Part shown: positions 9,442 through 63,419 of the stretch, one piece after another
Layout: every line of letters begins with the position of its first letter
How positions within the stretch are numbered: position 1 is the stretch's first letter
Source of the DNA: Lotus japonicus
Taxonomy: Eukaryota > Streptophyta > Magnoliopsida > Fabales > Fabaceae
NCBI RefSeq assembly: GCF_012489685.1
Contig: NC_080042.1
Span: 41,716,066 to 41,780,065 of the forward strand
Direction of reading: 5' to 3'
DNA length: 64,000 bases
Program-made: the position numbers and the translations under genes
The notes under the pieces: model-generated
The model's database searches: none
Seen by the model: only the letters and a program-made list of their open reading frames with translations
Told to the model about the DNA's origin: nothing

Positions 9442-11260
9442 ATGGTGAGACAAACCAGAAGATCTACTGCAGATGCACCTCAGTTCCCTCACATGGTAGT
9501 TGGCCTAGCAACGGGTCAAAGGGGCCCTGAGAATCCGACACCAGATCAAGGTCAAGCTCAAGAGCAGATTCTTCCAATTGCAGAACGGGGCTGTGCCGTT
9601 CACTGCGTATATCCTCCTGAGGAACTCCAAGTCCTGGCAGAATGGAGATTCAACCTCGACAACCTGGCTACAAATGGGTATGACCTTCGTCCTGAAGTCC
9701 AAGCTCAAGGTTGGGGAAATTACTTCAACAGACTTCGAGGACCGGTGTATGATAGACTGGTAAAGGAATTCTGGAAGCACGCCGACTGCGATGTACTCAG
9801 GTGGTATCTCACATTCTTGGAAGAAAGATCATCATCACGGAGAAGTCCTTCGTGAACTTGCTGGGTGCAGACACTGCTTATGGGTATCGTTTCCAACTCA
9901 CGGAATCGAAGCTGAAACCCAGCACCAAGGACACAATCAACCAGGCCCTGTACACCACTTTCAAACCGGGCAAGACGAGTTACAAGGTGATGGACCTTCA
10001 CCCCAAACTCAGAATCTGGCACAAGATCCTGCTCCACTGCATAAACCAGAGACCGAAGGGCAGTTCTCCAGACTACATCAACTTCAACCAGAAGGTGATG
10101 TTGTTCTTCATCCAAGACCAGAAGAAGATCTGCCTTCCCTACTTCCTGTTCTCCTACTTGAAGGAATGCATCCGGGAAGTCTCGCACCACTGCCTCCATC
10201 AAGTCAGCAATCAAATATATCCCCTTTGGGAGACTGCTCTCAGACTTTCTCATTGAAAGCAACCTGGTGCAAGATCTGGTCAATGCTGGATGTGTAGAGG
10301 ATCTGAGCACAATTGTCAGTGATGTCTTCACTGCAAATTCTCTGAAGAAGATGGGTTTGGTCCAGAAGAAGATTGCTCCTGCTCGTTGAAGACACATCTT
10401 CTGAGATCAGAAGCAGAAGGATGCCTCTCACTGACTACCCTCTGTGGACACAGGCAGACAATCCTGACGCCATCAGGTGCTATGTTGAAGACCTAAGGGC
10501 TCAAGGATTCGAAATTGATCTTGATGATTTCGTCAGCAGACTACCGCCTGCTCCAGAGTTTCCTTCTCCTCCCAAGAAGAAAGCTCAGAGGAAGATGGTT
10601 CTGGACGAATCCTCTGAGGAATCAGATGTCCCTCTGATCAAACCGAAGAAGAGAAAGCCTGATGATGGTGATGATAGTGACAATGAGGATGGTCCTCCTA
10701 AGAAGAAGAAGAAGAAGCAGGTCAGAATCGTGGTGAAGCCTACTCGGGTGGAACCAGCTGCTGAAGTGGTCAGAAGGACTGAACCTCCTGCCAGAGTGAC
10801 TAGATCATCAGCACATTCAAGTAAGCCTGCACTTGCTTCTGATGATGATTTGAATTTATTTGATGCACTCCCTATTTCTGCCATGCTCAAACACTCCTCA
10901 AATCCCCTCACTCCTATTCCTGAATCCCAACCAGCCGCACAAACCACCTCTCCACCACATTCCCCAAGATCTTCTTTCTTTCAACCTTCCCCTACTGAAG
11001 CACCTCTCTGGAATTTGCTTCAGAACCAACCCTCTAGGTCAGAAGAACCAACCTCTCTCCTTACCATCCGTACGACCCATTATCTTCTGAACCCATCATC
11101 CATGAACAACCAGAGCCCAACCAAACAGAACCACAACCCAGAACGTCTGATCACTCTGTTCCCAGAGCATCAGCACGTCCTGCTGCCAGAACCACGGATA
11201 CAGATTCTTCCACAGCCTTTACACCTGTATCCTTCCCAACCAATGTTGCTGATTCTTCTC
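9442..11260 (+). pseudogene. Envelope-like ORF of copy B, 5' part, frameshifted and split
   Basis: This starts with ATG at 9442 (MVRQTRRSTADAPQF) and matches the 949-aa ORF of copy G. It is broken by a 1-bp deletion near 9793, an insertion near 10176, one near 10384 and another near 11066. The basic clusters (PPKKKKKKQVRI region near 10700) and the Pro/Ser-rich middle can be read in pieces. At 11260 it is interrupted by a solo LTR and resumes at 13853. The protein function is unknown, and no membrane segment is apparent. Confidence 0.85.
11256..11260. repeat. Target site duplication TTCTC, left
   Basis: The five bases TTCTC lie just before the solo LTR and are repeated at 13853-13857. Removing the LTR and one copy restores the sequence seen in copy C at about 23035 (TTCTCCTTCC there, TTCTCCCTCC here). 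Confidence 0.92.
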
Positions 11261-23840: not shown

Positions 23841-23846
23841 TTTATT
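23841..23846 (-). terminator. Poly(A) signal of the antisense gene (copy C)
   Basis: AATAAA on the minus strand lies 53 bp after the stop of the antisense ORF. Copies E and G have AATAAA at nearly the same distance. Confidence 0.55.
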
Positions 23847-23899
23847 ATTCATCATAACCGCTTTTACATCATACATTTTTTTTTCTTTTTCCTAAAATC

Positions 23900-24292
23900 C
23901 TAGAATGGAGGATCCCTCCTCATTCTTCTGCACTCCTGGCACTGCTCTGACCTCTCCTTCTCCAGACGCTCCAGTGCATACTGGATGTTGTTGAGCCTGT
24001 CTTTTAGCTCATCCCTCTCCAGAATCTCTTCTGCAGTCTTGAGCTTCTTTTCCAAGATCTCTTTTTCTTCCAGCAGCTTTAGTTCAAGCTGGCTGAGTTC
24101 TTGCACCTCCTCCACGAAGGCAAGAAATTCCCTCAAGTCTCTATTCAACTCTGGACGCAGGTCCTCCTCCAGCAGTGTCCGTGTTAGCTCTGAGATGGTT
24201 GTTGTACCCTCTGGATGCCTAATGTTGAGAAACAAGTCCTCCTCAAAGGCTCTCTTTCTCAGCTCCTCTAATGCGATCATGTATGATGCCAT
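23900..24292 (-). CDS. Antisense coiled-coil ORF, 130 aa (copy C)
   Basis: This ORF lies on the strand opposite to gag, pol and the envelope-like ORF, between the latter and the 3' LTR. It starts with ATG at 24292 (MASYMIALEELRKRAFEED) and ends CRRMRRDPPF. The sequence is highly charged, Leu/Glu/Lys/Arg-rich, with heptad-like spacing from about residue 35 to 120 (LLEEKEILEKKLKTAEEI), so a helical coiled coil is expected. No signal peptide or membrane segment is seen. Copy G has an ORF of exactly the same length with about 72% identical residues by my hand alignment, most changes being conservative (K/R, D/E, I/V, L/M). A TATA box lies upstream and AATAAA downstream. I do not recognise the family and the function is unknown. 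Confidence 0.75.
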   Translation of the reverse strand: MASYMIALEELRKRAFEEDLFLNIRHPEGTTTISELTRTLLEEDLRPELNRDLREFLAFVEEVQELSQLELKLLEEKEILEKKLKTAEEILERDELKDRLNNIQYALERLEKERSEQCQECRRMRRDPPF

Positions 24293-24337
24293 TTTTCTCT
24301 GGTATGATGTTGTGAGGCTTACCCCTCTCTCCAACGC

Positions 24338-24368
24338 TTTATATAGGCTTCACTTTCTCTCTGAAAGT
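24338..24368 (-). promoter_or_regulatory. TATA box and inverted repeat upstream of the antisense ORF (copy C)
   Basis: On the minus strand TATATAAA (24345-24338) stands 45 bp before the ATG and is followed by the conserved GTTGGAGAGA block. Just upstream lies the inverted repeat ACTTTC-N5-GAAAGT (24352-24368). The same arrangement is seen in copies E and G. Confidence 0.6.
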
Positions 24369-36535: not shown

Positions 36536-36566
36536 ACTTTCAGAGAGAAAGTGAAGCCTATAAAAA
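36536..36566 (+). promoter_or_regulatory. Inverted repeat and TATA box of the antisense gene (copy E)
   Basis: ACTTTC-N5-GAAAGT (36536-36552) is followed by TATAAAAA (36559-36566), 49 bp before the ATG at 36616. The same block occurs in C and G. Confidence 0.6.
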
Positions 36567-36615
36567 CGTTGGAGAGAAAGGTAAGCTTCACATCTCGAAT
36601 AATATTCAGAAAAAA

Positions 36616-37006
36616 ATGGCATCATACAGAATGGCATTAGAAGAGCTCAGAAGGAAGGCGTTTGAGGAAGATATGTTCCTCAATATTAGGCATCCCGATG
36701 GTTCAAAGACCATACAAGAGCTGACGAAGACACTGCTTGAAGAAGATCTTGGTCCAGAGATGGAGAAAGATCTGAAGGAGTTCCTCTGCTTCGTGGAAGA
36801 GATTCAGGAGCTTTGCCAGCGGGAGCTGAATCTGCTGGAAGAGAAGGAGACTGTGGAAAAGAGACTCAAGACGACAGAAGATAGTCTAGAAAAGATGATC
36901 TGAGCATCAAACTGGCAACATAGAGTATGCATTGGATCGTCTGGAGAAGGAAAGAGTGGAGCAGCGCCAAGAATGCAGAAGAATGAGGAAGGATCCTCCA
37001 TTCTAG
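36616..37006 (+). pseudogene. Antisense coiled-coil ORF of copy E, frameshifted
   Basis: ATG at 36616 opens MASYRMALEELRRKAFEED and stays open for 95 codons. The sequence near 36893-36900 (AAAAGATGATC) then differs from copy G (GAGAGAGGAGC), net 2 bp shorter, and causes a stop. The rest, ending MRKDPPF in another frame, is preserved. The first 90 residues are very close to G. This copy is either inactivated or carries a local sequence error. Confidence 0.75.
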
Positions 37007-37215: not shown

Positions 37216-40055
37216 CTAAGGTTTGTCAGTACGGCGCAGAAGTTCCATCATCATGTGCTTCATCTCAATCAGCATGGATTCATGAGTGTCAAGACGTTGT
37301 TCCATGATGTCGAGTCTGGATGAGCTTGTCGGAGTAGAGCTGGAAGGAACGTTCTGAGCAGCTTGAGGTTCTGGAATGGAAGCAGAAGCAGCAGGAGTAA
37401 ATGGAACTGGTGCAAGTCGCTCTGCCTCAGCTTCAGCTTCAAGACGTTCTGCCTCAAGTCTGGCTTGTTCAGCCTGAGCTGCTGCTTGACGGGCAGCTTC
37501 TTCTTCTTGTTCTTTCTGTCTCTTGGCTTCTTCAATGGCTTCAAGAAGCTTGGTTCTCTGTTCTAGTTCGTGAAGAGCCACCCTCCTAGCAAATCTTTGC
37601 TTTGCAGCCTCAATGCTCTGACTGCCCTCTGCATGCAGGAGCTGCAGCATAACGGGAAACTGAGCCACCAGCCAAGTGCTCAACTCATTCCACTCATCAG
37701 CCACATTTTCAGCATTCTCACTGAGGTCAGTCTGACCGTGCACATTGCGGAGCCTCAAGGAGGCTTCATGATTGAAAATATTGATGCACTCAGAGAGAGA
37801 TGTGGGTTGAAGGTGAGTGTAGGGAATGATGGAGAGGTTGGGTGCAGGAGAGGCTGGGTGATTGCTGCTATGAGCTTCAGAGGCACCTTGTGGAGAACCA
37901 ATGTTAATTATGGGAGCATTGGGTTCAGAGGTTCCACGGTGAGGGTCTGAAGTTTCAACCAGAGGGTGAGGTGATCTAACCGAGGATTGGTTAGATACTG
38001 ATTGTTCAGGTTCAGGGTCTGGTTGAATTGGCTCTTGTTGGTCAGGGACAGGGTGAGCCTGTTGAACTAGGGGGTCTGCCTCTTGGATAGGATTGGCCAA
38101 GATAGGTTCATCTGGGTCAACTAGACGTTCAGGTCTAGGGCCAGGATATTGCCTAGGGCTTGGACAGGTAAGGTAATGTTCTTCCAAGGCAGATACCTTC
38201 TCTTTCCTAACCTCCATGAATTTTCTAAGTGATTCAGAGGTATTGGAGGGAGGAGAGTCAAAGACATTGGTGGGGAAGGATACAGGTGTGAAGGCTGATG
38301 AAGAGTCTGTATCCGTGGGTCTGACAGCAGGACGTGCTGATGCTCTGGGAGCAGAGTGATCAGACGTTCTGGGTTGTGATTCTGTTGGTTTGGGTTCTGG
38401 TTGGTTTTGGATGATGGGTTCAGAAAGTAATGGGTCGTATGGAATGGTGAGGAGAGAGGTTGGATCTTCTGACCTAGAGGGTTGGTTCTGAAGCAAATTC
38501 CAGAGTGGTGCTTCAGTAGGAGAAGGTTGAAAGAAAGAAGATCTTGGGGAATGTGGTGGAGTGGTGGTTTGTGCGGCTGGCTGGGATTCAGGAATAGGAG
38601 TGAGGGGATTTGAAGATTGTTGGAGTAAGGCAGAAATTGGGAGTGCATCAAATAAATTCAAATCATCATCAGAGGTAAGTGCAGGCTTACTTGTATGTGC
38701 TGATGATCGAGTCACTCTGGCAGGAGGTTCAGTCCTTCTGACCTCTGCAGCAGCTGGTTCCACCCGAGTAGGCTTCACCACAATTCGACTTTCTTCTGCT
38801 TCTTCTTTGGAGGACCATCCTCACTATCATCACCATCATCATCATCAGGCTTGCTCTTCGTCTTCTTGACCAGAGGGACATCAGATTCCTCTGAGGATTC
38901 GTCCAGAACCATCTTCCTCTTGGTTTTCTTCTTGGGAGGAGAAGGAAACTCTGGAGCTGGTGGAAGTCTGCTGACGAAATCATCAAGGTCAATCTCGAAT
39001 CCTTGAGCCCTGAGGTCTTCAACATAGCATCTGATGGCTTCAGGATGATCTGCTTGAGTCCACAGAGGGTAGTCATTCAGAGGCATTCTTCTTCCTCTGA
39101 TCTCAGAAGATGTGTCCTCATGAGCAGGAGCAATCTTCTTCTGGACTAAGCCCATCTTCTTCAGAGAGTTGGCAGTGAAGACATCGCTGACGATTGTGCT
39201 CAGGTCCTCTGTGCAACCAGTCTCGATCAAATCTTGCACCAGGTTGCTTTCAATGAGAAAGTCTGAGAGCAGCCTCCCAAAAGGGATATATTTGATGGCT
39301 GACTTGATGGAGGAGGTGGTGCGAGACTTCCGGATGCATTCCTTCAAATAGGAGAACAGGAAGTAGGGAAGGCAGATCTTCTCCTTGTCTTGAATGAAGA
39401 ACAGCATCGCCTTCTGATTGAAGTTGATGTAGTCTGGAGAACTGCCCTTTGGTCGTTGATTGATGCAGTGGAGCAAGATCTTGTGCCAGATTCTCAGTTT
39501 GGGGTGAAGATCCATCACTTTGTAGCTCGTCTTGCCCGGTTTGAAGGTGGTGTACAGGGCCTTGTTGACGATGTCCTTGGTTCTGGGTTTCAGCTTCGAT
39601 TCCGTCAGTGAGAACCGATACCCATGAGCAGTTTCTGCACCTAGCAGATTCACGAAGGACTTCTCCGTGATGATGATCTTCCTACCCAGGATGTAAGAAA
39701 CCACCTGAGTGTCATCACAATCAGCGTGCTTCCAGAATTCCTTTACTAGCTTCTCATACACCGGTCCTCGAAGTCGATTGAAGTAGTTTCCCCAACCTTG
39801 AGCTTGGACTTCAGGACGGAGATCAAACCCATTTGCAGCCAAGTTGTCGAGGTTGAATCTCCATTCTGCCAGGACTTGGAGTTCCTCAGGAGGAAATACA
39901 CAGTGAACGGCACAGCCCCGTTCTGCAATAGGAACAATCTCCTCTTGAGCTTGAGCTTGTTCTTGTGCTGGGTTCTCAGGACCCCGTTGACCCGTTGCCA
40001 AACCGACTACCATGTGAGGGAACTGAGGTGCATCTCTTCTGGTTTGTCTCACCAT
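37216..40055 (-). pseudogene. Envelope-like ORF of copy E, one frameshift
   Basis: ATG at 40055 (MVRQTRRDAPQF, lacking four residues found in the other copies) opens a frame to about 38788. There a 1-bp deletion (AATTCGAC against AATTCTGAC on the plus strand) shifts it. The second frame is open to TAG at 37216. Together they cover the whole protein: N-terminal block with GCAVHC, basic clusters, Pro/Ser-rich middle, Glu/Ala/Arg-rich coiled coil and the C-terminal helix ending LLRRTDKP. Apart from the single base it is complete, so it may be intact in the real genome. Confidence 0.88.
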
Positions 40056-45456: not shown

Positions 45457-45468
45457 GCTCTGATACCA
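45457..45468 (-). other. Primer binding site (initiator-Met tRNA), copy E
   Basis: TGGTATCAGAGC on the minus strand, two bases after the 5' LTR. Confidence 0.93.
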
Positions 45469-45470
45469 AT

Positions 45471-46680
45471 TGAAGGTATGAAAAACGGTAGAAAGGGGGG
45501 GTTTGAATAACGTTTTCAGTACAAAACTACCACCTTAAAGATTTTAACAAATCTTTTCGAGAACTAAGTGCAAAAGATAGAGATAGACAAGCACACAAGG
45601 ATTTTATCCTGGTTCACTTGATAAATCACTCAAGCTACTCCAGTCCACCCGTTAAGGTGATTTCTTCCTTCTTAGAATGAAGGCAATCCACTAATCAGGT
45701 AAGAGTTACAACTGCACTTGAAACCTACAAGTGACTAACAATTACACTGACTTAGCTCACACTAAGATTCACTCTCTTAGTCTTCTCTAGGATCCGATCA
45801 ACCTTGATCTCCTAAAGGAAAATCAAACAACTGTTTGAGGTTGGTGTTTACAAGGGTTTGCTTCTGAATAAGCTGAGTGTAAACTAAATAAATTACAAGA
45901 TGAAAGAAAGCTTAGAATATTTTGAATGTCTTGCGCGTGTGTTGCTTCTTAGTTTCTTAGCCGCTTCTTTCAATCTTCAGCCTCTATATATACTCCAAGG
46001 ATTAGGGTTGAGCGTTGCATGGGAAATGCTACCGTTGGAGGGCAGTTCTGGAAAATCCAGCTTCTGCTGTGGCTGAGAACGTTAGGTAGGTCGTCAGGAA
46101 GGTACACTGCTTTTGTACTTGGATAGCGACTTGACCTTTTAACCTAGGAGACTTCTGATCAGAGGAATGCTTCGTATAGGAACTTGTGAAGCCGGTTGAT
46201 CAGAGTCAGAGGGAAAGCACAGATCCTCTGACCATTGTATCTTCTGATTCTGAACTCAGAGGGAAGAACATGGCCTTCAGAGTTTCTTGCTTCTGGACTT
46301 CAGAGTTTCCACTATTCAGCTTCTGGATCTTCAGAGTCTTCTACACCATCGGAACATCTGAACCTTCAGTGTTTCTTGGTTGTCAGAACTTCTGGATCAT
46401 CAGAGCTTCTAGCGACTGAGTCCTCATCAGAGTTTGTATAGCTTCAGATCTTCTGAAGCTTTTCCACTGTTCATACTGAACATGGTGAATGCGAAAGCGT
46501 TGCTTGGGTTACCCTTTATACACAGTGCTTCTGATTTGTGTGAAATTGAGTCAGGGTCAGAGCCTGTAAATAGCACACTCAGAAAAACACGTTAGAGTAC
46601 CACAATTGTTCATATCAAAAGGTTAACTTGTAATCATCAAAACATAGAGTTGTACTACTAGATCAAAACTTGATCTTACA
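45471..46680 (-). repeat. 5' LTR of copy E
   Basis: This 1210-bp LTR has TG...CA ends and TATATATA at 45985-45992. The bases just outside (46681-46685, CTTGG) should be the target duplication in F. The partner copy would lie in the gap at 34639-34738. Confidence 0.93.
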
Positions 46681-48203
46681 CTTGGGGAATGTGGTGGAGA
46701 GGTGGTTTGTTCGGCTGGCTGGGATTCAGGAATAGGAGTGAGGGGATTTGAGGAGTGTTGAAGCAAGGCAGAAATAGGGAGTGCATCAAATAAATTCAAA
46801 TCATCATCAGAAGCAAGTGCAGGCTTACTTGAATGTGCTGATGATCGAGTCACTCTGGCAGGAGGTTCAGTCCTTCTGACCACTTCAGCAGCTGGTTCCA
46901 CCCGAGTAGGCTTCACCACGATTCTGACCTTCTTCTGCTTCTTCTTTGGAGGACCATCCTCACTATCATCATCATCACCATCATCAGGCTTTCTCTTCGT
47001 CTTCTTGACCAGAGGGACATCAGAGTCTTCAGAGGATTCTTCCAGAACCATCTTCCTCTGAGCTTTCTTCTTTGGAGGAGAAGGAAACTCTGGAGCTGGC
47101 GGTAGTCTGCTGATGAAATCATCAAGGTCAATCTCGAATCCTTGAGCCCTGAGGTCTTCAACATAGCATCTGATGGCTTCAGGATGGTCCGCTTGAGTCC
47201 ACAGAGGGTAGTCATTCAGAGGCATTCTTCTTCCTCTGATCTCAGAAGATGTGTCTTCATGAGCAGGAGCAATCTTCTTCTGGATTAAGCCCATCTTCTT
47301 CAAGGAGTTTGCAGTGAAGACATCACTGACAATTGTGCTCAAATCCTCTGTGCAACCAGCATCGATCAAATCTTGCACCAAGTTGCTTTCAATGAGAAAG
47401 TCTGAGAGCAGCCTCCCAAAAGGGATGTATTTGATTGCAGACTTGATGGAGGCGGTGGTGCGAGACTTCCGGATGCATTCCTTTAAGTAGGAGAACAGGA
47501 AGTAGGGAAGGCAGATCTTCTCCTTGTCTTGAATGAAGAACAGCATCGCCTTCTGGTTGAAGTTGATGTAGTCTGGAGAACTGCCCTTCGGTCTCTGGTT
47601 TATGCAGTTGAGCAGGATCTTGTGCCAGATTCTGAGTTTGGGGTGAAGATCCATCACTTTGTAACTCGTCTTGCCCGGTTTGAAGGTGGTGTACAGAGCC
47701 TGGTTGACTATGTCCTTGGTGCTGGGTTTCAGCTTCGATTCCGTCAGTTGGAAACGATACCCATAAGCAGTATCTGCACCTAGCAGATTCACGAATGACT
47801 TCTCAGTGATAATGATCTTCCTGCCAAGAATGTGAGAGACCACCTGAGTGTCATCGCAGTCTGCGTGCTTCCAGAATTCCTTTACCAATTTCTCATACAC
47901 CGGTCCTCGAAGTCGATTGAAATAGTTTCCCCAACCTTGAGCTTGGACTTCAGGACGAAGATCAAACCCATTTGCAGCCAGGTTGTCGAGGTTGAATCTC
48001 CATTCTGCCAGGACTTGGAGTTCCTCAGGAGCAAATACGCAGTGAACGGCACAGCCCCGTTCTGCAATAGGAACAATCTGCTCTTGAGCTTGAACTTGTT
48101 CTTGTACCGGGTTCTCAGAGCCCCTTTTACCCGTTGCCAAACCAACTTCCATGTGAGGGAACTGAGGTGTATCTGCAGTAGATCTTCTGGTTTGTCTCAC
48201 CAT
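46681..48203 (-). pseudogene. Envelope-like ORF of copy F, interrupted by copy E
   Basis: ATG at 48203 (MVRQTRRSTADTPQF) opens 507 codons without a break up to the insertion point, just after the PPHSPR-encoding region (CCCCAAG). It includes the N-terminal block and both basic clusters (KKKAQRK and KKKQKKVRI). The frame then runs a few codons into the LTR of E. The C-terminal half should continue beyond E, past the third gap. Confidence 0.88.
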
Positions 48204-51751: not shown

Positions 51752-52596
51752 AGATGATCTTGTCCTTAGGTACCCACTTTCTGGGTCCTCTTTTGTTAGT
51801 TACCCCAGAGGTTCTGATCACCTTGGGTGTCTCAACATAATATTTTAAAGGAATATTTGCATGATATTTAGTCATAGAGAAAGATCCCTTTTTAAGAGGA
51901 TGTTTAGCAACTTTAGCAGGTACAGGATCAGGCAATATGGTACCAGAGGGAACAAAGCATTCATACAAGGATTTAGCTTTAGACATAGAAGGCTCATTTC
52001 TAATTGGTTTAGAATAGCCAATGCCATGCATTCCATTTCTGCTTACGCCATAGATCATTGAAGCCATTAAGCTTCTATCCACGCTTTTAGCTAGGAATCT
52101 TTGAAAAGACTTTTCATACTTAGATTCATTTCTACAATCAGAGGCATCACAGGCAACAATTTCTTCTAACTTAGCAATCTGGTTCTTAAGCACAGAGTTA
52201 GAATTTACCAAAGCATGATTTTCATTTTTCAAATCAGAAATAATTTTCTCATGTTCAGAAGGAGTCTTAGAGACAGCAGATAAGTTCTTTTTCAACTTTT
52301 TATGCTTAGACAATAAAGAGTTATACTTATCCATGATATCAGACAAAGCATGTTTCAGTTCAGAGGTAGAGAAGGAAGCGAATACCTCATTTTCATCGTC
52401 TGAGTTAGGATCTCCTTCTGATTCTGAGTCAGAGTCAACAGCTTCCTTTGACTCTGCTCCTTTGTCTTTGACAATGGCCATGAGTCCTTGGACTTCACCA
52501 TCAGAGTCAACATCCTCTGACTCTGATTCATCGAATGTCACCATCAGACTCTTCTTGGTCTTGAAGTGCTTCTTTGGCTTCTTGTCTTTCTTCAAC
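51639..52596 (-). pseudogene. gag: gag of copy F, C-terminal half, interrupted by copy G
   Basis: The frame begins at the LTR of G with LKKDKKPKKHF, just after the zinc knuckle, and is open to 51639. It includes the acidic stretch and coiled coil. The N-terminal half and knuckle should lie beyond the right edge of the window, on the far side of G. The 113-nt overlap with pol is kept. Confidence 0.9.
52592..52596. repeat. Putative target duplication of copy G (TCAAC)
   Basis: These are the five bases of F gag next to the outer end of the 3' LTR of G. The second copy should follow the 5' LTR of G outside the window, so it cannot be confirmed here. Confidence 0.5.
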
Positions 52597-53810
52597 TGAA
52601 GGTATGAAAAACGGTAGAAAGGGGGGGTTTGAATAACGTTTTCAGTACAAAACTACCACCTTAAAGATTTTAACAAATCTTTTCGAGAACTAAGTGCAAA
52701 AGATAGAGATAGAAAAGCACACAAGGATTTTATCCTGGTTCACTTGATAAATCACTCAAGCTACTCCAGTCCACCCGTTAAGGTGATTTCTTCCTTCTTA
52801 GAATGAAGGCAATCCACTAATCAGGTAAGAGTTACAACTGCACTTGAAACCTACAAGTGACTAACAATTACACTGACTTAGCTCACACTAAGATTCACTC
52901 TCTTAGTCTTCTCTAGGATCCGATCAACCTTGATCTCCTAAAGGAAAATCAAACAACTGTTTGAGGTTGGTGTTTACAAGGGTTTGCTTCTGAATAAGCT
53001 GAGTGTAAACTAAATAAATTACAGGATGAAAGAAAGCTTAGAATATTTTGAATATCTTGCGCGTGTGTTGCTTCTCGTATTTTTCTTCGCCGCTTCTTTC
53101 AATCTTCAGCCTCTATATATACTCCAAGGATTAGGGTTGAGCGTTGCATGGGAAATGCTACCGTTGGAGGGCAGTTCTGGAAAATCCAGCTTCTGCTGTG
53201 GCTGAGAACGTTAGGTAGGTCGTCAGGAAGGTACACTTGCTTTTGTACTTGGATAGCGACTTGACCTTTTAACCTAGGAGACTTCTGATCAGGGGAATAC
53301 TTCATATTGGAACTTGTGAAGCCGGTTGATCAGAGTCAGAGGGAAAGCACAGATCCTCTGACCATTGTATCTTCTGATTCTGAACTCAGAGGGAAGAACA
53401 TGGCCTTCAGAGTTTCTTGCTTCTGGACTTCAGAGTTTCCACTATTCAGCTTCTGGATCTTCAGAGTCTTCTACACCATCAGAACATCTGAACCTTCAGT
53501 GTTTCTTGGCTATCAGAACTTCTGGATCTTCAGAGCTTCTAGCGACTGAGTCCTCATCAGAGTTTGTATAGCTTCAGATCTTCTGAAGCTTTTCCACTGT
53601 TCATACTGAACATGGTGAATGCGAAAGCGTTGCTTGGGTTACCCTTTATACACAGTGCTTCTGATTTGTGTGAGATTGAGTTGAGGTCAGAGCCTGTAAA
53701 TAGCACACTCAGAAAAACACGTTAGAGTACCACAATTGTTCATATCAAAAGGTTAACTTGTAATCATCAAAACATAGAGTTGTACTACTAGATCAAAACT
53801 TGATCTTACA
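52597..53810 (-). repeat. 3' LTR of copy G
   Basis: This 1214-bp LTR has TG...CA ends and TATATATA at 53114-53121. Its outer end is joined directly to the middle of F gag, not to a PBS, which shows an insertion rather than a shared LTR. Confidence 0.94.
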
Positions 53811-53811
53811 A

Positions 53812-53824
53812 TCTCCCCCTTTTT
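53812..53824 (-). other. Polypurine tract (copy G)
   Basis: AAAAAGGGGGAGA on the minus strand, one base before the LTR. Confidence 0.92.
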
Positions 53825-54528
53825 GATGATGACAAAACTAAGATTTTTGATGAACAATTCTTAAACAATAAACTGAATTCACTCAGAGTTTAGAGATATA
53901 AAAAAAACTTATCCTGATGTGAATAGTTTATCTTGCTCATTCTGAATTCAAGTCACTGCTTGATTCTGAGCTTAGCTCCCCCTGAATCTAACACTTGATG
54001 AAAACGTTAGTAAAATCTAGATTCTGAGCTAAAACATATAAGAGTTCAGAGTAAAAGGCTTATGACATAGATGAAAAACGAATAATCAGAGCGCATGAGT
54101 GATCAGAGTCATAGACAGGGTATCAGAGTCTTGGGTATCAGAGTCAACTTAGAATCACTTCAGAAGAAGTGAAATGTATTCCTTGTATTTGCCCAGTGAC
54201 ACATCTATGGTCATGAAGGTGGAACTCTTAAAATCTCCAAAAGAAAAATAAGTCACACTAACACATCTTACACATCAAAAACTGGGTTTACTCCCCCTTT
54301 TTGTCATAAGCAAAAAGCTTGGGGTGTGAAAAACTTAGCTTGAAGTACAAGGTACTCCCCCTTAGAGAAGGTCTAAGTTTAAGGAAAATGAAAATGATGT
54401 AAGAATCAGAGTTAGGCGAAAATAAATAGGAGAGTTAATGCAAGGGATGAACGTTTACCACCGGTCAAGTGAGTAAATAGAAGGGTCAGTTACCAAGAAC
54501 TTAACCTCGAGAAACTGTAGGAGCATTA
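53825..54528 (-). other. 3' non-coding region with extra polypurine motifs (copy G)
   Basis: There is no gene. PPT-like motifs on the minus strand lie at 54290-54302 and 54355-54361. The many TCTGA/TCAGA words continue through this part. Confidence 0.75.
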
Positions 54529-54558
54529 ACTTTCAGAGAGAAAGTGAAGCCTATAAAA
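54529..54558 (+). promoter_or_regulatory. Inverted repeat and TATA box of the antisense gene (copy G)
   Basis: ACTTTC-N5-GAAAGT (54529-54545) is followed by TATAAAA (54552-54558), 57 bp before the ATG. The ACGTTGGAGAGA block after the TATA box matches E exactly and C closely. Confidence 0.62.
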
Positions 54559-54615
54559 AAAACGTTGGAGAGAAAGGTAAGCTTCACACCTCGAATAATT
54601 TTCAGTAAGAAAAAA

Positions 54616-55008
54616 ATGGCATCATACAGAACGACATTAGAAGAGCTCAGAAGGAAGGCTTTTGAGGAAGATATGTTCCTCAATATTAGGCATCCCGATG
54701 GTACAAAGACCATACAAGAGCTGACGAAGACACTGCTGGAAGAAGATCTTGGTCCAGAGATGGAGAGAGATCTGAAGGAGTTCCTCTGCTTCGTGGAGGA
54801 GATTCAGGGGCTTTGCCAGCGGGAGCTGAATCTGCTGGAAGAGAAGGAGACTGTGGAAAAGAGACTTAAGACGACAGAAGATAGTCTAGAGAGAGAGGAG
54901 CTGAGCATCAGACTCGGCAACATAGAGTATACACTGGATCGTCTGGAGAAGGAAAGAGTGGAGCAGCGCCAAGAATGCAGAAGAATGAGGAAGGATCCTC
55001 CGTTCTAG
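54616..55008 (+). CDS. Antisense coiled-coil ORF, intact 130 aa (copy G)
   Basis: This is an intact ORF on the strand opposite to the element's other genes, from ATG 54616 (MASYRTTLEELRRKAFEED) to TAG at 55008. An in-frame upstream ATG at 54544 exists, but it lies before the TATA box and is not shared in sequence, so the MASY start is preferred. The protein is charged and Leu/Glu/Lys/Arg-rich with heptad-like patterns at about residues 35-120, ending CRRMRKDPPF. There is no signal or membrane segment. It has the same length as the copy in C with about 72% identity and no indels, while pol differs by only a few percent. TATA upstream and AATAAA downstream make a complete small transcription unit. 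The family is unrecognised. It could act as a particle or nuclear accessory protein or work through antisense RNA; both are guesses. Confidence 0.8.
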   Translation: MASYRTTLEELRRKAFEEDMFLNIRHPDGTKTIQELTKTLLEEDLGPEMERDLKEFLCFVEEIQGLCQRELNLLEEKETVEKRLKTTEDSLEREELSIRLGNIEYTLDRLEKERVEQRQECRRMRKDPPF

Positions 55009-55064
55009 ATATAGGGAATAATGTATGATGGAAAGAAGTATGATGTAAACATAGAACAATTATG

Positions 55065-55070
55065 AATAAA
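55065..55070 (+). terminator. Poly(A) signal of the antisense gene (copy G)
   Basis: AATAAA, 56 bp after the stop of the antisense ORF. Confidence 0.55.
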
Positions 55071-55226: not shown

Positions 55227-58076
55227 CTAAGGTTTGTCAGTGCGTCGCAGAAGTTCCATCATCATTTGCTTCATCTCAATCAGCATGGATTCATGAGTGT
55301 CAAGACGTTGTTCCATGAGGTCGAGTCTGGATGAGCTTGTCTGAGTAGAGCTGGAAGGAACGTTCTGAGCAGCTTGAGGTTCTGGAATGGAAGCAGAAGC
55401 AGCAGGAGTAAACATAACTGGTGCAAGTCGCTCGGCCTCAGCCTCAGCTTCAAGACGCTCTGCCTCAAGTCTGGCTTGTTCAGCCTTAGCTGCTGCTTGA
55501 CGTGCAGCTTCTTCTTCTTGTTCTTTCTTTCTCTTGGCTTCTTCAATAGCTTCAAGAAGCTTGTGTCTCTGTTCTAGTTCGTGAAGAGCCACCCTCCTAG
55601 CAAATCTTTGCTTTGCAGCCTCAATGCTCTGACTTCCCTCTGCATGCAGGAGCTGCAGCATAACGGGAAACTGAGCCACTAGCCAAGTGCTCAAATTGTT
55701 CCACTCATCAGCCACATTGTCAGCATTCTCACTGAGATCAGTCTGACCGTGCACATTGCGGAGCCTCAAGGAGGCTTCATGATTGAAAATATTGATGCAC
55801 TCAGAGAGAGATGTGGGTTGAAGGTGAGTATAGGGAATGATGGAGAGGTTGGGTGCAGGAGAGGCTGGGTGATTGCTGCTATGAGCTTCAGAGGCACCTT
55901 GTGGAGAACCAATGTTAATTATGGGAGCATTGGGTTCAGAGGTTCCACGGTGAGGGTCTGAAGTTTCAACCAGAGGGTGAGGTGATCTAACCGAGGATTG
56001 GTTAGACACTGATTGTTCAGGTTCAGGGTCTGGTTGAATTGGCTCTTGTTGGTCAGGGACAGGGTGAGCTTGTTGGACTAAGGGGTCTGCCTCTTGGATA
56101 GGATTGGCCAAGATAGGTTCATCTGGGTCAACTAGACGTTCAGGTCTAGGGCCAGGATATTGCCTAGGGCTTGGACATGTAAGGTAATATTCTTCCAAGG
56201 CAGATACCTTCTCTTTCCTAACCTCCATGAATTTTCTAATTGATTCAGAAGTGTTGGAGGGAGGAGAGTCAATCACATTGATGGGGAAGGATACAGGTGT
56301 GAAGGCTGATGAAGAGTCTGTATCCGTGGGTCTGACAGCAGGACGTGCTGATGCTCTGGGAGCAGAGTGATCAGACGTTCTGGGTTGTGGTTCTGTTTGG
56401 TTGGGCTCGGTTTGGTCATGGATGATGGGTTCAGAAGGTAATGGGTCGTATGGAATGGTAAGGAGAGAGGTTGGATCTTCTGACCTAGAGGGTTGGTTCT
56501 GAAGCAAATTCCAGAGAGGTGCTTCAGTAGGAGAAGGTTGAAAGAAGGAAGATCTTGGGGAATGTGGTGGAGAGGTGGTTTGTGCGGCTGGTTGGGTTTC
56601 AGGAATAGGAGTGAAGGGATTTGAAGAGTGTTGGAGTAAGGCAGAAATCGGGAGTGCATCAAATAAATTCAAATCATCATCAGAGGTAAGTGCAGGCTTA
56701 CTTGTATGTGCTGATGATCGAGTCACTCTGGCAGGAGCTTCAGTCCTTCTGACCTCTGCAGCAGCTGGTTCCACCCGAGTAGGCTTCACCACAATTCTGA
56801 CTTTCTTCTGCTTCTTCTTTGGAGGACCATCCTCACTATCATCACCATCATCATCAGCAGGCTTGCTCTTCGGTTTCTTGACCAGAGGGACATCAGATTC
56901 CTCTGAGGAATCTTCCAGAACCATCTTCCTCTTGGTTTTCTTCTTTGGAGGAGAAGAATACTCTGGAGCTGGTGGAAGTCTGCTGACAAAATCATCAAGG
57001 TCAATCTCGAATCCTTGAGCCCTGAGGTCTTCAACATAGCATCTGATGGCTTCAGGATGGTCTGCTTGAGTCCACAGAGGGTAGTTATTCAGAGGCATTC
57101 TTCTTCCTCTGATCTCAGAAGATGTGTCTTCATGAGCAGGAGCAATCTTCTTCTGGATTAAGCCCATCTTCTTCAAAGAGTTGGCAGTGAAGACGTCACT
57201 GACAATTGTGCTCAAGTCCTCTGTGCAACCAGCATTGATCAAATCTTGCACCAAGTTGCTTTCAATGAGAAAGTCTGAGAGCAGCCTCCCAAAAGGGATA
57301 TATTTGATGGCTGACTTGATGGAGGCGGTGGTGCGAGACTTCCGGATGCATTCCTTCAAATAGGAGAACAGGAAGTAGGGAAGGCAGATCTTCTCCTTGT
57401 CTTGAATGAAGAACAGCATCGCCTTCTGGTTGAAGTTGATGTAGTCTGGAGAACTTCCCTTTGGTCGCTGATTGATGCAGTTGAGCAGGATCTTGTGCCA
57501 GATCCTGAGTTTGGGATGAAGGTCCATCACCTTGTAGCTCGTCTTGCCCGGTTTGAAAGTGGTGTACAGGGCCTTGTTGACTATGTCCTTGGTTCTGGGT
57601 TTCAGCTTCGATTCCGTTAGTGAGAACCGATACCCATGAGCAGTTTCTGCACCAAGCAGATTCACGAATGACTTCTCCGTGATGATGATCTTCCTACCCA
57701 GTATGTAGGAGACTACCTGAGTGTCATCACAATCAGCGTGCTTCCAGAATTCCTTTACTAGCTTCTCATACACCGGTCCTCGAAGTCGATTGAAGTAGTT
57801 TCCCCAACCTTGAGCTTGGACTTCAGGACGAAGATCAAACCCATTAGCAGCCAAGTTGTCGAGGTTGAATCTCCATTCTGCCAGGACTTGGAGTTCCTCA
57901 GGAGGAAATACACAGTGAACGGCACAGCCCCGTTCTGCAATAGGAACAACCTGCTCTTGAGCTTGAGCTTGTTCTTGTGCTGGGTTCTCAGAGCCTTGTT
58001 GACCCGTTGCCAAACCGACTACCATGTGAGGGAACTGAGGTGCATCTGCAGTAGATCTTCTGGTTTTTCTCACCAT
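55227..58076 (-). CDS. Envelope-like ORF of copy G, intact 949 aa
   Basis: This is the only unbroken full-length copy. It starts with ATG at 58076 (MVRKTRRSTADAPQF); the frame is open 52 codons further upstream, but that part is leader-like and not conserved. The N-terminal third is globular, with GCAVHC near residue 51 and a VKEFWKHADCDD block, reminiscent of the plant transposon-protein type of domain (weak impression). Basic clusters lie near 378-384 (KKKTKRK) and 421-430 (KKKQKKVR), then a Pro/Ser/Thr-rich stretch to about 790. A Glu/Ala/Arg-rich coiled coil spans about 837-885, and a Met/Leu-rich helix lies at the end. I see no signal peptide or hydrophobic membrane helix. The envelope-like label therefore rests only on position. 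The role is unknown, possibly nuclear. Confidence 0.85.
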   Translation of the reverse strand: MVRKTRRSTADAPQFPHMVVGLATGQQGSENPAQEQAQAQEQVVPIAERGCAVHCVFPPEELQVLAEWRFNLDNLAANGFDLRPEVQAQGWGNYFNRLRGPVYEKLVKEFWKHADCDDTQVVSYILGRKIIITEKSFVNLLGAETAHGYRFSLTESKLKPRTKDIVNKALYTTFKPGKTSYKVMDLHPKLRIWHKILLNCINQRPKGSSPDYINFNQKAMLFFIQDKEKICLPYFLFSYLKECIRKSRTTASIKSAIKYIPFGRLLSDFLIESNLVQDLINAGCTEDLSTIVSDVFTANSLKKMGLIQKKIAPAHEDTSSEIRGRRMPLNNYPLWTQADHPEAIRCYVEDLRAQGFEIDLDDFVSRLPPAPEYSSPPKKKTKRKMVLEDSSEESDVPLVKKPKSKPADDDGDDSEDGPPKKKQKKVRIVVKPTRVEPAAAEVRRTEAPARVTRSSAHTSKPALTSDDDLNLFDALPISALLQHSSNPFTPIPETQPAAQTTSPPHSPRSSFFQPSPTEAPLWNLLQNQPSRSEDPTSLLTIPYDPLPSEPIIHDQTEPNQTEPQPRTSDHSAPRASARPAVRPTDTDSSSAFTPVSFPINVIDSPPSNTSESIRKFMEVRKEKVSALEEYYLTCPSPRQYPGPRPERLVDPDEPILANPIQEADPLVQQAHPVPDQQEPIQPDPEPEQSVSNQSSVRSPHPLVETSDPHRGTSEPNAPIINIGSPQGASEAHSSNHPASPAPNLSIIPYTHLQPTSLSECINIFNHEASLRLRNVHGQTDLSENADNVADEWNNLSTWLVAQFPVMLQLLHAEGSQSIEAAKQRFARRVALHELEQRHKLLEAIEEAKRKKEQEEEAARQAAAKAEQARLEAERLEAEAEAERLAPVMFTPAASASIPEPQAAQNVPSSSTQTSSSRLDLMEQRLDTHESMLIEMKQMMMELLRRTDKP

Positions 58077-58519
58077 TTTGAAGAGGTTGAAGGTTTGAGG
58101 TAGAAGATGAAGTTTGAAGGATGAAGAGAGATTGAGAGAGAAATCAAGAAGGAGGCGGTTTTGAAAAGCAGAGAGTGCGAGAGTGAAAACCGGAAGTGAG
58201 AGAGAACGTGTGTGTATAGTGGGTTTTATCAAATAACCGTTGTTGATTCAAAAAGCACTTTAAGATCAACGGTTGAAAATTAAAGATAGACAGTAACAGT
58301 AAAATACACAATCACACACAGGAGATAAGCATATCTACACGCAATCATAACAGACTGTCACACGGGCACAAGGAACTATGCATCAGAAATTCTGACGCAC
58401 GTGTTGTTGTCTCAGCTTCAGAGTCAGTACCAGTGGGCACACACACTCTGATTGAGTTACCTTCTGGACTAGACATCTTCTGATCAAGAAGTATCATAGT
58501 CAGAGGTTCTGATCCATCT
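58077..58519 (-). promoter_or_regulatory. pol to envelope-like spacer (copy G)
   Basis: This conserved 443-bp spacer includes, on the minus strand, GGTTATTTGATAAAACCCAC, then ACTATACACACACG and a CT-rich tract to the ATG. It is typical in composition of a plant promoter and 5' leader, though transcription cannot be shown from sequence. Confidence 0.42.
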
Positions 58520-61500
58520 TCACTCTGGACAAAAGTCCATGCTTAGATTTTTCAGAATAAAATTAAATCTATCTTCAGCTAAGGGCTTTGTAAAGATATC
58601 TGCCCATTGATGGTCAGTATCAACAAACTTCAGAAAAAGTACGCCCTTCTGTACATAATCTCTAATAAAATGATACTTTACCTCAATGTGCTTTGCCCTT
58701 GAATGCAAGATAGGATTCTTACTCAATGAAATTGCAGCAGTGTTATCACAATAGATTGGGATATTGCTCTCAAGGATCTGATAATCCTCCAGCTGATGTT
58801 TCATCCAGAGCATCTGAGTGCTGCATATTGCTGCTGAGATATATTCTGCCTCTGCAGTTGATAGTGCAATGGTTGATTGCCTCTTGCTTGCCCATGAGAC
58901 TAGATTGCTTCCCAGAAATTGACAATTTCCAGAAGTACTTTTTCTCTCTGTTCTATCTCCAGCATAATCAGCATCACAATAACCTGAAAGCTTATACTCT
59001 GATGTTTTCTTATACATCAAGCCAAGGTTAGTGGTGCCTTTCAGATACCTTAGGATCCTCTTAACGGCAGTTAAGTGGGTTTCCCTTGGATCTGATTGGA
59101 AACGAGCACATAAATGAACACTAAATAATATGTCTGGCCTAGATGCAGTTAAGTATAGAAGTGAACCTATCATGCCACGATAGAGCTTCTGACATACTTT
59201 ACCACTTATATCTTCTTTTTCCAGAATGCATGTTGGATGCATTGGAGTCTTGGCCACTGTAGATTCCAGCATATTGAACTTCTTCAGAAGTTCTTTAGTG
59301 TACTTGCTCTGATGGATATATGTTCCTTCTGGTGTTTGATTAACTTGTATTCCCAGAAAGTACTTTAATTCTCCCATCATACTCATCTCAAATTCAGCCT
59401 GCATCATCTCAGAAAATTCTTTGCATAGAGATTGATTAGCAGAACCAAATATAATATCATCAACATAAATTTGCACAATTAAGATATCATCCTTATAAGT
59501 CTTGCAAAAGAGAGTTGTATCTACTTTACCCCTTACAAACTCATTCTCCAGAAGGAATGAGCTAAGTCTCTCATACCATGCTCTGGGAGCTTGCTTCAGA
59601 CCGTAGAGTGATTTCTTCAATTTGAACACATGGTCTGGTTTCTTTTCATCTTCAAAACCTGGGGGTTGATGAACATAGACTTCCTCTGAGATATAACCAT
59701 TTAGGAAGGCACTCTTTACGTCCATCTGATGTAGAATTATGTTGTGATTTACTGAGAAAGAGATCAATAGTCTGATTGCCTCCAGTCTAGCTACTGGAGC
59801 AAATGTTTCAGTGTAGTCTATTCCTTCCTGCTGGCTGTAGCCTTGAGCAACTAGCCTTGCCTTGTTTCTGACTACATCTCCTTTCTCATTTAGCTTGTTT
59901 CTGAATACCCATTTCGTTCCAATAACATGGACATTCTCAGGCTTCTTCACTAAGCTCCAAACATCGTTCTTGGAGAATTGATTCAATTCTTCTTCCATGG
60001 CCAGAATCCAATCCTTGTCCTGAAGAGCTTCATCTATGGACTTGGGTTCAATTAAGGACACCAATCCTTTCAGACTCAGTAAGGTCTCTTCAGAGGGTCT
60101 GAAGGCAGATCTGGTTCTGACTGGTTCATCTTTGTTGCCCAGAATCAATTCCTTAGGATGAGCTGCAGTGATTCTGCTCTTCTTCAGAGTTTGTGAGTTA
60201 GAGGGACCAGCTTCTTCCTCTGGTTCATCTTCCTCTGGCTCAACTTCCTCTGGAGCTTTGCCTTTGTCAGAAACATTAATGCTTAAATCTGCAAACTTTT
60301 CAACTAGCTTTGACTGGTCAGAGTCAAGCTTATCATCAAATCTAACATGAATAGATTCTTCAATAGTCTTAGCATCAGTATTATAAAATCTAAAACCTTT
60401 AGATCTATCAGAATAACCAAGTAATAGACACTTAGAAGACTTAGCATCAAATTTATGCAATCTATCCTTAGTATTGAGAACATAACAAACACAGCCAAAA
60501 GGATGAAAATAAGAAATGTTGGGTTTTATGTTCTTCCACAATTCATAAGGAGTCTTATTCAGAATTGGTCTCACAGAGATTCTATTCTGAATGTAACATG
60601 CTGTATTTACTGCCTCTGCCCAAAAGTGCTTAGCCATGCCAGTTTCTTGGAGCATGGTTCTAGCCATCTCCTGAAGAGTTCTGTTCTTCCTCTCAACAAC
60701 ACCATTTTGTTGAGGAGTTCTGGGACAAGAGAAATCATGTGCAATTCCATAGGAATCAAACAGACTCTCAAACTTGTCATTCTCAAACTCTCCACCATGG
60801 TCACTTCTGACACGCACAATTCTACAAGCCTTCTCGTTTTGCACTTGAGCAATGAAGGTAGAGAACACAGCATGAGACTCATCCTTGCGGGTTAGAAACT
60901 TTACCCATGTCCAGCGGCTATAGTCATCAACGATAACCATCCCATATCTCTTGCCACCTATAGACTCAGTTTTCACTGGTCCAAACAGGTCGATATGCAG
61001 AAGTTCTAACGGCCTTGAGGTTGAGACAACATTCTTTGCCTTGAAAGGGACTTTTGTGAACTTGCCTTTCTGACATGCTTCACAAAGAGCGTCTGAAGCG
61101 AACTTCAGATTGGGTAAGCCCCTGACAAGGTTTAGCTTGCTCAGCTGAGAAATCTTTCTCATACTGGCATGCCCTAACCGTCTATGCCATACCCACTGCT
61201 CTTCATTAACAGACAGAAGCACTTCACATTCTGAGCCTCCAACTCAGATAATCTGATCTTATAAATGTTGTTCTTCCTCTTGCTGTTAAACAGAACAGAG
61301 CCATCGATCTGACTTACAGCCCGGCAGGACTTTTGATTGAATATAACATCATAACCCTTGTCAGCTAATTGACTTATAGACAATAAGTTATGTGTTAAGC
61401 CGTCTACCAATAAAACATTATCAATGCATGGACTACTATCTACACAAATAGTACCAGTACCAATAATTTTACCCTTTTCATTTCCTCCGAAGCCAACTTC

Positions 61501-61623
61501 GCCTCCAGGCTTAAGTTTCAGCTCTCGGAACATACGCTTTTCTCCCGTCATGTGACGCGAGCATCCACTGTCCAGATACCATGATTGGTGTTTCAGTGGA
61601 GCTATCAAGGATATCTGCAACAT
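58520..61623 (-). pseudogene. pol: pol of copy G, one frameshift
   Basis: ATG at 61623 opens protease (DSGCS). A 1-bp deletion in a GG run near 61219 (AGAAGCAC against AGAAGGCAC on the plus strand) shifts the frame just before the integrase finger. The remaining 900 codons, with DD35E integrase, YVDD RT and RNase H, are open to 58520. It is otherwise complete and nearly identical to E, so a consensus error is likely. Confidence 0.92.
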
Positions 61624-63419
61624 AGATAATCTTGTCCTTAGGTACCCACTTTCTGGGTCCTCTTTTGTTAGTTACCCCAGAGGTTCTGATCACCTTGGGT
61701 GTCTCAACATAATATTTTAAAGGAATATTTGCATGATATTTAGTCATAGAGAAAGATCCCTTTTTAAGAGGGTTTTTTGCAACTTTAGCAGGTACAGGAT
61801 CAGGCAATATGGTACCAGAGGGAACAAAGCATTCATACAAGGATTTAGCTTTAGACACAGAAGGCTCATTTCTAATTGGTTTAGAATAGCCAATGCCATG
61901 CATTCCATTTCTGCTTACGCCATAGATCATTGAAGCCATTAAGCTTCTATCTACGCTTTTAGCAAGGAATCTTTGAAAAGATTTTTCATACTTAGATTCA
62001 TGCTTACTATCAGAGGCATCGCAGGCAATAACTTCTTCTAACTTAGCAATTTGATTCTTAAGCACAGAGTTAGAATTAACTAAAGCATGGTTATCATTTT
62101 TCAAATCAGATATGATTTTCTCATGTTCAGAAGGAGTTTTAGAAACAGCAGATAAGTTCTTTTTCAGCTTCTTATGCTTAGACAACAAGGAGTTATACTT
62201 ATCCATGATATCAGACAAAGCATGTTTCAGTTCAGAGGTAGAGAAGGAAGCAAATACCTCATTTTCATCGTCTGAGTTAGGATCTCCTTCTGATTCTGAG
62301 TCAGAGTCAACAGCTTCCTTTGACTCTGCTTCCTTGTCTTTGACAATTGCCATGAGTCCTTGGACTTCACCATCAGAGTCAACATCCTCTGACTTTGATT
62401 CATCAAATGTCACCATCAGACTCTTCTTGGTCTTGAAGTGCTTCTTTGGCTTCTTGTCCTTCTTCAATTTTGGACAGTCACTTTTGTAGTGCCCTGATTC
62501 TTTGCACTCAAAGCAAGTGACTTCCTTGATTGATGACTTCTTCTGACCTGAGGATTCAGACTTTCCTCTTGCCTTTCCAGAGCCTTTGAACTTGCTCTGC
62601 CTGTGCTTCCAGATGCGGTTGAGTCTCTTGGAGATCAGAGTCAGCTCATCTTCATCAGAATCTTCTGATGCCTCTTCAGATTCTTCTTCTTCAGCTTGAA
62701 GAGCCTTTGACTTCTCAACCTTAGCCTTTTCAGATTTGGATTTCAAGGCTATGGACTTTTTCCTGAGATCTTGCATCTCTGAGCGCTTCAGCTCATGGCA
62801 TTTCAAAATGCTGATGAGTTCTTCTAAACTCATATTCTCAACGTCTCTCGTGAGCTCTATTGAAGTCACCAAAGGCATCCAACTTTCAGGAAGACACCTG
62901 ATGACCCTTATGACATGATCTTTTGTTGTGTAGCTCTTGTTGAGAGGACGTATGCCAGCTACAAGCAGTTGAAATCTGGAGAACATTTCTTCAATGGACT
63001 CATTTGGCTCCATGATGAAGGATTCATACTTTTGGATCAAAGACAATGCCTTTGATTCTTTGACTTTCTTGTTTCCTTCATGAGACATCTTCAGAGAATC
63101 AAAAATGCCTTTAGCAAACTCACGATCTGTAATCTTCTGGTACTCCTCATAGGAGATAGCACTTAGAAGAATTGCTCTTGCTTTGTGATGTTGTGAGTAC
63201 AGCTTCTTTTGATCTGCAGTCATCTCTGACCTTGGGATCTTCTTGCATCTGCATCAACTGGACGCTCATAGCCATCCACAATAATATCCCAGAGATCTGC
63301 ATCGAAACCCAGAAAGAAACTTTCCAGTCTATCTTTCCAATATTCAACCTTTGACCATCGAACATAGGAGGCTTTGCGTTGTAACCATCTCTTTGAGTTT
63401 CACTGGTGGTGGCAGCCAT
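61511..63419 (-). pseudogene. gag: gag of copy G, two frameshifts near the start
   Basis: ATG at 63419 (MAATTSETQ) opens gag. Single-base deletions near 63350 and 63245 break the first 60 codons. From 63223 the frame is open for 570 codons with the UBN2-like part, CCHC knuckle (CFECKESGHYKSDC), acidic stretch and coiled coil, to 61511. The 113-nt overlap with pol in the +1 frame is kept. Confidence 0.9.

Follow-up and report, generated by a model that had tools for sequence, protein, structure and literature searches.

In a 64,000-nucleotide stretch of Lotus japonicus DNA (hereafter, the window), Sirevirus-like retrotransposons carry a compact coding unit on the strand opposite gag-pol-env, and our analysis supports purifying selection on its 130-amino-acid (aa) frame. 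The unit sits between the envelope-like open reading frame (ORF) and the 3′ long terminal repeat (LTR). In element copy G it occupies positions 54529-55070 of the forward strand, where an inverted repeat (ACTTTC-N5-GAAAGT, ACTTTCAGAGAGAAAGT, 54529-54545), a TATA box (TATAAAAAA, from 54552), the 130-aa ORF (54616..55008) and an AATAAA (55065-55070) follow in that order, each at the place given in the original prediction. The same set predicted for copy C was also found, at 23841..24368 on the reverse strand (inverted repeat 24368-24352, TATA box from 24345, 130-aa ORF 24292-23900, AATAAA 23846-23841). A third window copy of the antisense gene, overlooked in that prediction, lies in copy E (36536..37006, forward strand), with its frame broken after codon 93. 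The ORFs of copies G and C represent two types, called G and C below. We consider it probable that the unit is transcribed from its own TATA promoter and that its product, predicted to be small, acidic and helical, is an accessory regulator working in trans.

The proteins of copies G and C, predicted to differ at about 36 of 130 residues, differ at exactly 36 and without any indel. Between the two ORFs (Nei-Gojobori counting method, 95% limits by bootstrap), nonsynonymous divergence (dN) is 0.165 and synonymous divergence (dS) 0.99, giving a dN/dS of 0.166 (0.079-0.296), with 19, 19 and 54 differences at codon positions 1, 2 and 3. A third branch, represented by locus L109, has a dN/dS of 0.144 versus type G and 0.161 versus type C. 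When the same 92 changes were placed at random in 4000 runs, they produced a mean of 58.4 and a minimum of 46 amino-acid changes; the observed 36 was never reached, and the frame stayed stop-free in 156 runs. In the two other frames of the ORF strand, dN exceeds dS for the same comparison. For copies G and C, dN/dS of the antisense ORF falls between that of gag (0.115) and that of env (0.21), with pol at 0.09. Furthermore, dN/dS drops from 0.72 in the closest pairs to 0.16 in the deepest across 47 unique sequences, taken from 51 intact ORFs (46 promoter-sampled and 5 sampled through polypurine tracts, PPTs; broken ORFs excluded). Such a trend is expected of a gene that would be selected during mobility of the element and could degenerate once the copy is inserted.

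The non-coding flanks are richer in indels than the ORF, as had been predicted. Among 32 copies, broken ones included (31 for the upstream linker), the ORF has 0.03 indels per pair per 100 bp, versus rates of 0.19 for the env end, 0.53 for the upstream linker, 0.73 for the stretch between inverted repeat and TATA box, 1.67 for the 5′ untranslated region (UTR) and 2.15 for the 3′UTR. The low dN/dS, the intact frames described below and the near-absence of ORF indels therefore suggest that a protein is selected, and not antisense RNA alone. The location of the unit would make the predicted antisense RNA the complement of the untranslated 3′ portion of the sense RNA, and this antisense RNA could matter by itself, pairing with the 3′ genomic RNA and feeding small-RNA silencing while the ORF is incidental. 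However, selection at the codon level, the conserved start, length and stop, and the count, among the 32 copies, of 2 distinct indels in the ORF versus 42 in the 3′UTR disfavor this as the sole role and make it quite improbable. Regulation of the element by antisense RNA may instead be an extra role beside the protein.

A protein search of the same genome (553.7 Mb in 65 contigs, with six contigs, C1-C6, spanning 68-137 Mb) returned 4333 first-look candidates, of which 150 were scored; all match, and 149 have no internal stop. Since such candidates are biased towards intact proteins, copies were also sampled by promoter. The promoter signature (inverted repeat plus CCTATA) has 1951 matches in the genome and its reversed control has 0. 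In this promoter-only sample, a 130-aa frame runs from the first ATG at 27 of the first 30 places and 19 of 20 later ones, or 46 of 50. The later places are 20 of the next 26 listed; the six omitted were already known from the protein search and were stop-free there, so their omission does not inflate the intact count. The four failures comprise frame-breaking indels at L054 and L060, a nonsense change at L067 and, at L089, an earlier ATG with the main frame broken at 87 aa. The dN/dS check proposed with the original prediction did not yield a value near 1 with stops in most copies. Together, the dN/dS of 0.166, these mostly intact frames and the almost indel-free ORF uphold its suggestion of purifying selection on a protein.

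A conserved promoter block covers 54490..54560 (forward strand) in copy G, its last element being the TATA box. Among seven aligned copies, both its upstream part and a TATA box are retained. In a set of 52 copies sampled through the ORF (copy E, with its split match, was excluded), the spacing of inverted repeat and TATA box is invariant wherever both match. In those copies with both, the TATA box lies 53-70 nt from the ATG, and 48-65 nt in promoter-sampled genes with an intact ORF, so that the arrangement common to the genes is TATA, 48-70 nt, ATG, ORF, AATAAA. The stop falls at codon 130 in 50 of the 52, AATAAA is present in 51 and TATA[AT]A in 40; the other 12 consist of eleven with TATAAG and one without the second T.

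The inverted repeat was predicted to be part of this set, and it is exact in copies G and C and in 49 of the 52 ORF-sampled copies. Within the window, it has three exact occurrences (copies C, E and G) and eight matches at ≤1 mismatch, versus 0.35 expected. However, it appears to be dispensable, because intact genes without it exist: among five intact-ORF copies lacking the exact repeat, L101-L103 have an altered left arm, L106 an altered right arm and L109 changes in both. These five were drawn from 3′ ends without the exact repeat plus CCTATA, and thus show that the repeat may be absent, not how frequent such absence is. Five window copies also have a one-mismatch version in their envelope-like region (16-32, 10244-10260, 39246-39262, 47385-47401 and 57258-57274), and at least three of these five versions sit within an open ORF.

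The junction between LTR and PPT occurs 3946 times in the genome. Among the first 100 such junctions, 41 are followed by an exact promoter, which lies 716-726 bp downstream in 40 cases and 489 bp downstream in the remaining one. We examined 12 of the 59 without an exact promoter. In five, a variant promoter precedes an intact 130-aa ORF, L104 and L107 are without the gene, apparently by deletion, and L105, L108, L110 and L111 are derivatives in which gag adjoins the linker, with short weak pol matches between; the last, L112, belongs to another family. The four derivatives are without both the envelope-like ORF and the antisense gene but keep the linker and its PPTs. In L107, the antisense gene and its promoter appear to have been cleanly lost at about oriented bases 620-650, with the end of the envelope-like ORF kept. 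At L112:394-810 (G000:C1:4799820-4801272), in an element of that other Sirevirus family, an ORF of 138 aa occupies a comparable position after the envelope-like stop, yet on the sense strand, and has AATAATAA downstream; at this one locus, similarity of that ORF to the antisense protein was not detected.

The two ORF types are embedded in one backbone. Pairwise identity of the ORF is bimodal, at either 74-82% or 88-100%; the linker is 94-100% identical and the env end 84-100%. With 32 copies grouped by ORF type (8 G and 24 C), there are 52 fixed differences in the 393-bp ORF. The linker (399 bp) and env (464 bp) have 0, the repeat-5′UTR segment has 2 and the 3′UTR has 4 (2 in a second count). 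Variation shared by both types occurs at 8 columns of the ORF, 11 of the linker, 5 of the repeat-5′UTR segment, 16 of the 3′UTR and 24 of env. Because these groups had been chosen on the ORF itself, copies were also grouped by env type, which gave 0 fixed differences in the ORF. Three copies (L070, L071 and L074) combine a C-type ORF with a G-like 3′UTR and env. The dS between G and C is 0.99 for the antisense ORF but declines to 0.42 for env, 0.15 for gag and 0.08 for pol.

Trees of linker and ORF DNA were both rooted, by choice, on L109. The ORF types are interleaved in the linker tree, where the branch to L109 is long. The ORF tree unites the C types in a single clade (100% support) with a long stem and places L109 nearer to G, whose clade is supported at only 41%. 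At the protein level, with 20 sequences and the database relative P0008 as root, type G and L109 are separated from type C and the relatives P0002 and P0003 (supports 0.86 and 0.84). The fixed-difference contrast, the trees and the dS contrast together suggest that the coding unit behaves as an exchangeable cassette whose history is older than that of its surroundings. Judged from the sequences, this mosaic would most simply reflect introgression from another lineage followed by recombination, and it is possible that selection has upheld the two ORF types over the long term.

Two deeply split types in a shared backbone fit a protein whose specificity matters. The antisense gene could be a type-specific recognition locus, with two ancient alleles persisting in a single recombining backbone, since each would control, protect or restrict elements of the type to which it belongs. 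We regard this as rather unlikely, but if it were true, a self/non-self or copy-number control gene would lie on the antisense strand of a Ty1/copia element. A related possibility, by analogy with p22 of yeast Ty1, is self-encoded copy-number control, in which the protein would inhibit particles or expression of its own type and the two types would be two specificities. The 52 fixed differences in the ORF against 0-4 per flank are consistent with it, and there is precedent in yeast, where the difference in copy-number control between Ty1 subfamilies lies in a gag segment gained by horizontal transfer and recombination (PMC7055915). However, tblastn of both ORF types against the window matched the antisense ORFs alone, with no similarity to Gag, and introgression plus selection on any function would yield the same mosaic; copy-number control of this kind thus seems unlikely.

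The protein itself offers few clues from homology. No antisense protein had a significant Pfam match of any kind, and in the same searches neither a bZIP domain nor, for P0001, P0005, P0002, P0004, P0006 and P0008, TRP28 (PF04195) was matched at E up to 1. Relatives outside this genome came from short contigs alone: P0002 (74%), P0003 (70%), P0004 (64%), P0006 (59%) and P0008 (47%), as well as the fragments P0007 and P0009. Given how close they are to the plant copies, these sequences suggest that plant DNA has entered microbial or raw-read assemblies. Two short ones, P0003 (85% to type C) and P0009, carry the label Bradyrhizobium sp. TM233; they resemble plant sequence that ended up in a bacterial assembly. 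The seven full proteins (two from the window and five from databases) are 129-130 aa long with 42 invariant columns, and the full-length relatives keep the ends MA... and ECR..R..PPF. An AlphaFold2 model from seven sequences (mean pLDDT 71) places helices at residues 2-17, 33-42, 47-86 and 90-126 and is confident for approximately residues 70-110 alone. The predicted isoelectric point is 4.9 for the whole protein and 8.2 for residues 101-130.

An accessory regulator might work as follows. RNA polymerase II would start transcription at the unit's own TATA promoter, with no need of the LTR, and translation of the 130-aa ORF would yield the predicted small acidic helical protein, which may oligomerize through its long helices (47-86 and 90-126). 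Its likeliest target, acting in trans, would be the element's own expression or particle assembly, with Gag and the envelope-like protein as candidate partners. Multicopy derivatives without the antisense gene exist, and those that bear gag (four of the 12 loci examined) help the idea that the protein could act in trans. We favor a trans-acting accessory or regulatory protein because of these derivatives, the compact arrangement of the unit and the constant spacing between inverted repeat and TATA box.

Anti-silencing and copy-number control are the sharper rivals to this proposal. An anti-silencing factor would counter host DNA methylation or small-RNA silencing, as VANC does in VANDAL elements (PMC5735166, PMC10398659). 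A separate promoter-like block joined to an accessory coding unit, and marked protein divergence at conserved length, would be consistent with such a factor. However, there is the lack of any significant Pfam match, and the upstream linker has 0 fixed differences between types, so no matching cognate non-coding motif is seen there. An anti-silencing role seems rather unlikely.

Several points weigh against a selected, trans-acting protein. First, the counting method approaches saturation at a dS of approximately 1. A low dN/dS (0.19) is also seen in one frame of the sense strand, which has its third positions in common with the ORF and is stop-free in copy C, and most sampled pairs are young, so the ORF could be open by chance, through codon bias on the opposite strand or the youth of the copies. 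Yet stops interrupt that sense frame in 51 of 52 copies, the divergence between G and C is deep, the random-mutation null fails and the promoter-only sample holds mostly intact frames, the opposite of the expected breakage; a chance ORF is therefore very improbable. The youth of the copies accounts in part for the high intactness, and the promoter sample is confined to one contig end (C1, 0-23.3 Mb). The gene is absent from 7 of the 12 Sirevirus 3′ ends examined without an exact promoter, and for this reason we describe it as common, not universal. Finally, the structural model is only moderate and structure comparison returned no relative that stands out, so the predicted fold gives no function.

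The host elements look like Sireviruses (the SIRE lineage of Ty1/copia) by their domains, PPTs, LTR size and envelope-like ORF. In copy G, all on the reverse strand, gag (61511..63223) is of copia type with a CCHC zinc knuckle, and pol (58520..61222) has integrase ahead of an RVT_2 reverse transcriptase, the copia order. The envelope-like ORF (1001 aa, 55227..58232) converges on the antisense gene and matches Pfam PF20167 at E 1.4e-10, under that family's curated cut-off. Self-comparison places the 3′ LTR, with a provisional outer end, at 52593..53810 (reverse strand, the element sense), and it is 98% identical over 1218 bp to its partner at 45467-46680. Several PPTs upstream of the 3′ LTR are described as a Sirevirus hallmark (PMC2829016), and copies G, E and C have four each, one of the four being a base shorter in E and C. 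Those of copy G (53813..54361, reverse strand; starts 53813, 53976, 54291 and 54355) lie between the 3′ LTR and the antisense gene. Sireviruses can reach high abundance and are reported to make up ~21% of the maize genome (PMC3599292).

The element resembles, by description, two that are already known from Lotus. Lotus2 has an LTR of ~1.22 kb, four PPTs in its linker and an envelope-like ORF (PMC2829016), and LjRetro3, named by Gao et al. as a relative of bean Ty1-copia elements, is a Ty1/copia element with an envelope-like ORF (PMC4093653). However, the available portion of the Lotus2 description assigns the stretch from the envelope-like gene to the 3′ LTR to a linker domain, without mention of an antisense gene; there, the Sirevirus 3′ linker has so far been treated as non-coding (PMC2829016). 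We found no report of an antisense ORF in a Sirevirus or other Ty1/copia element in the literature searched.

Two other LTR elements offer parallels. HBZ of HTLV-1 is likewise a regulatory protein encoded by an antisense gene (PMC10186651), although only as an analogy: HBZ, a bZIP factor, is made from RNA that begins within the 3′ LTR and has spliced and unspliced forms, whereas the Lotus protein has no bZIP match and its TATA box is beyond the LTR, adjoining the ORF. Ty1 p22 is a small extra Ty1/copia protein from a separate transcript (PMC4599808), and Ty1 subfamilies, too, differ in a recombined segment (PMC7055915); the Lotus protein differs in being antisense and dissimilar to Gag.

The closest parallels are the conserved antisense ORFs between pol and 3′ LTR (aORF-3R) of Ty3/gypsy elements, namely Grande gene23, RIRE2, Retand and PvRetro13, for which a trans-acting accessory or regulatory role has been proposed (PMC7264820). 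The Lotus unit falls within this structural class: like them it is antisense, lies between pol/env and the 3′ LTR and is kept among copies (46 of 50 promoter-sampled), and gene23 has its own promoter (PMC7264820), as is predicted for the Lotus unit. The Retand ORF has a TRP28 domain (PMC11963269), which the Lotus protein is without. In common bean, Gao et al. described antisense ORF2 from 15 Ty3-gypsy families and, from the Ty1-copia ones, envelope-like ORFs; bean ORF2 measures 211-939 aa (PMC4093653), whereas the Lotus ORF has 130 aa and belongs to a Ty1/copia Sirevirus. By description, gene23 and bean ORF2 are set apart from the Lotus ORF with its lack of a Pfam match and its two exchangeable types. 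The two deeply split types, and a coding unit that appears from sequence comparison to be an exchangeable cassette, are new. A feature found in the literature searched only for Ty3/gypsy is thus extended to Ty1/copia, with codon-level selection demonstrated on an antisense accessory unit whose product would be an added layer of control for this class of elements. With nearly 2000 promoter copies and two coding types in one genome, the long-standing question of the role of antisense accessory ORFs in plant retrotransposons becomes directly testable.
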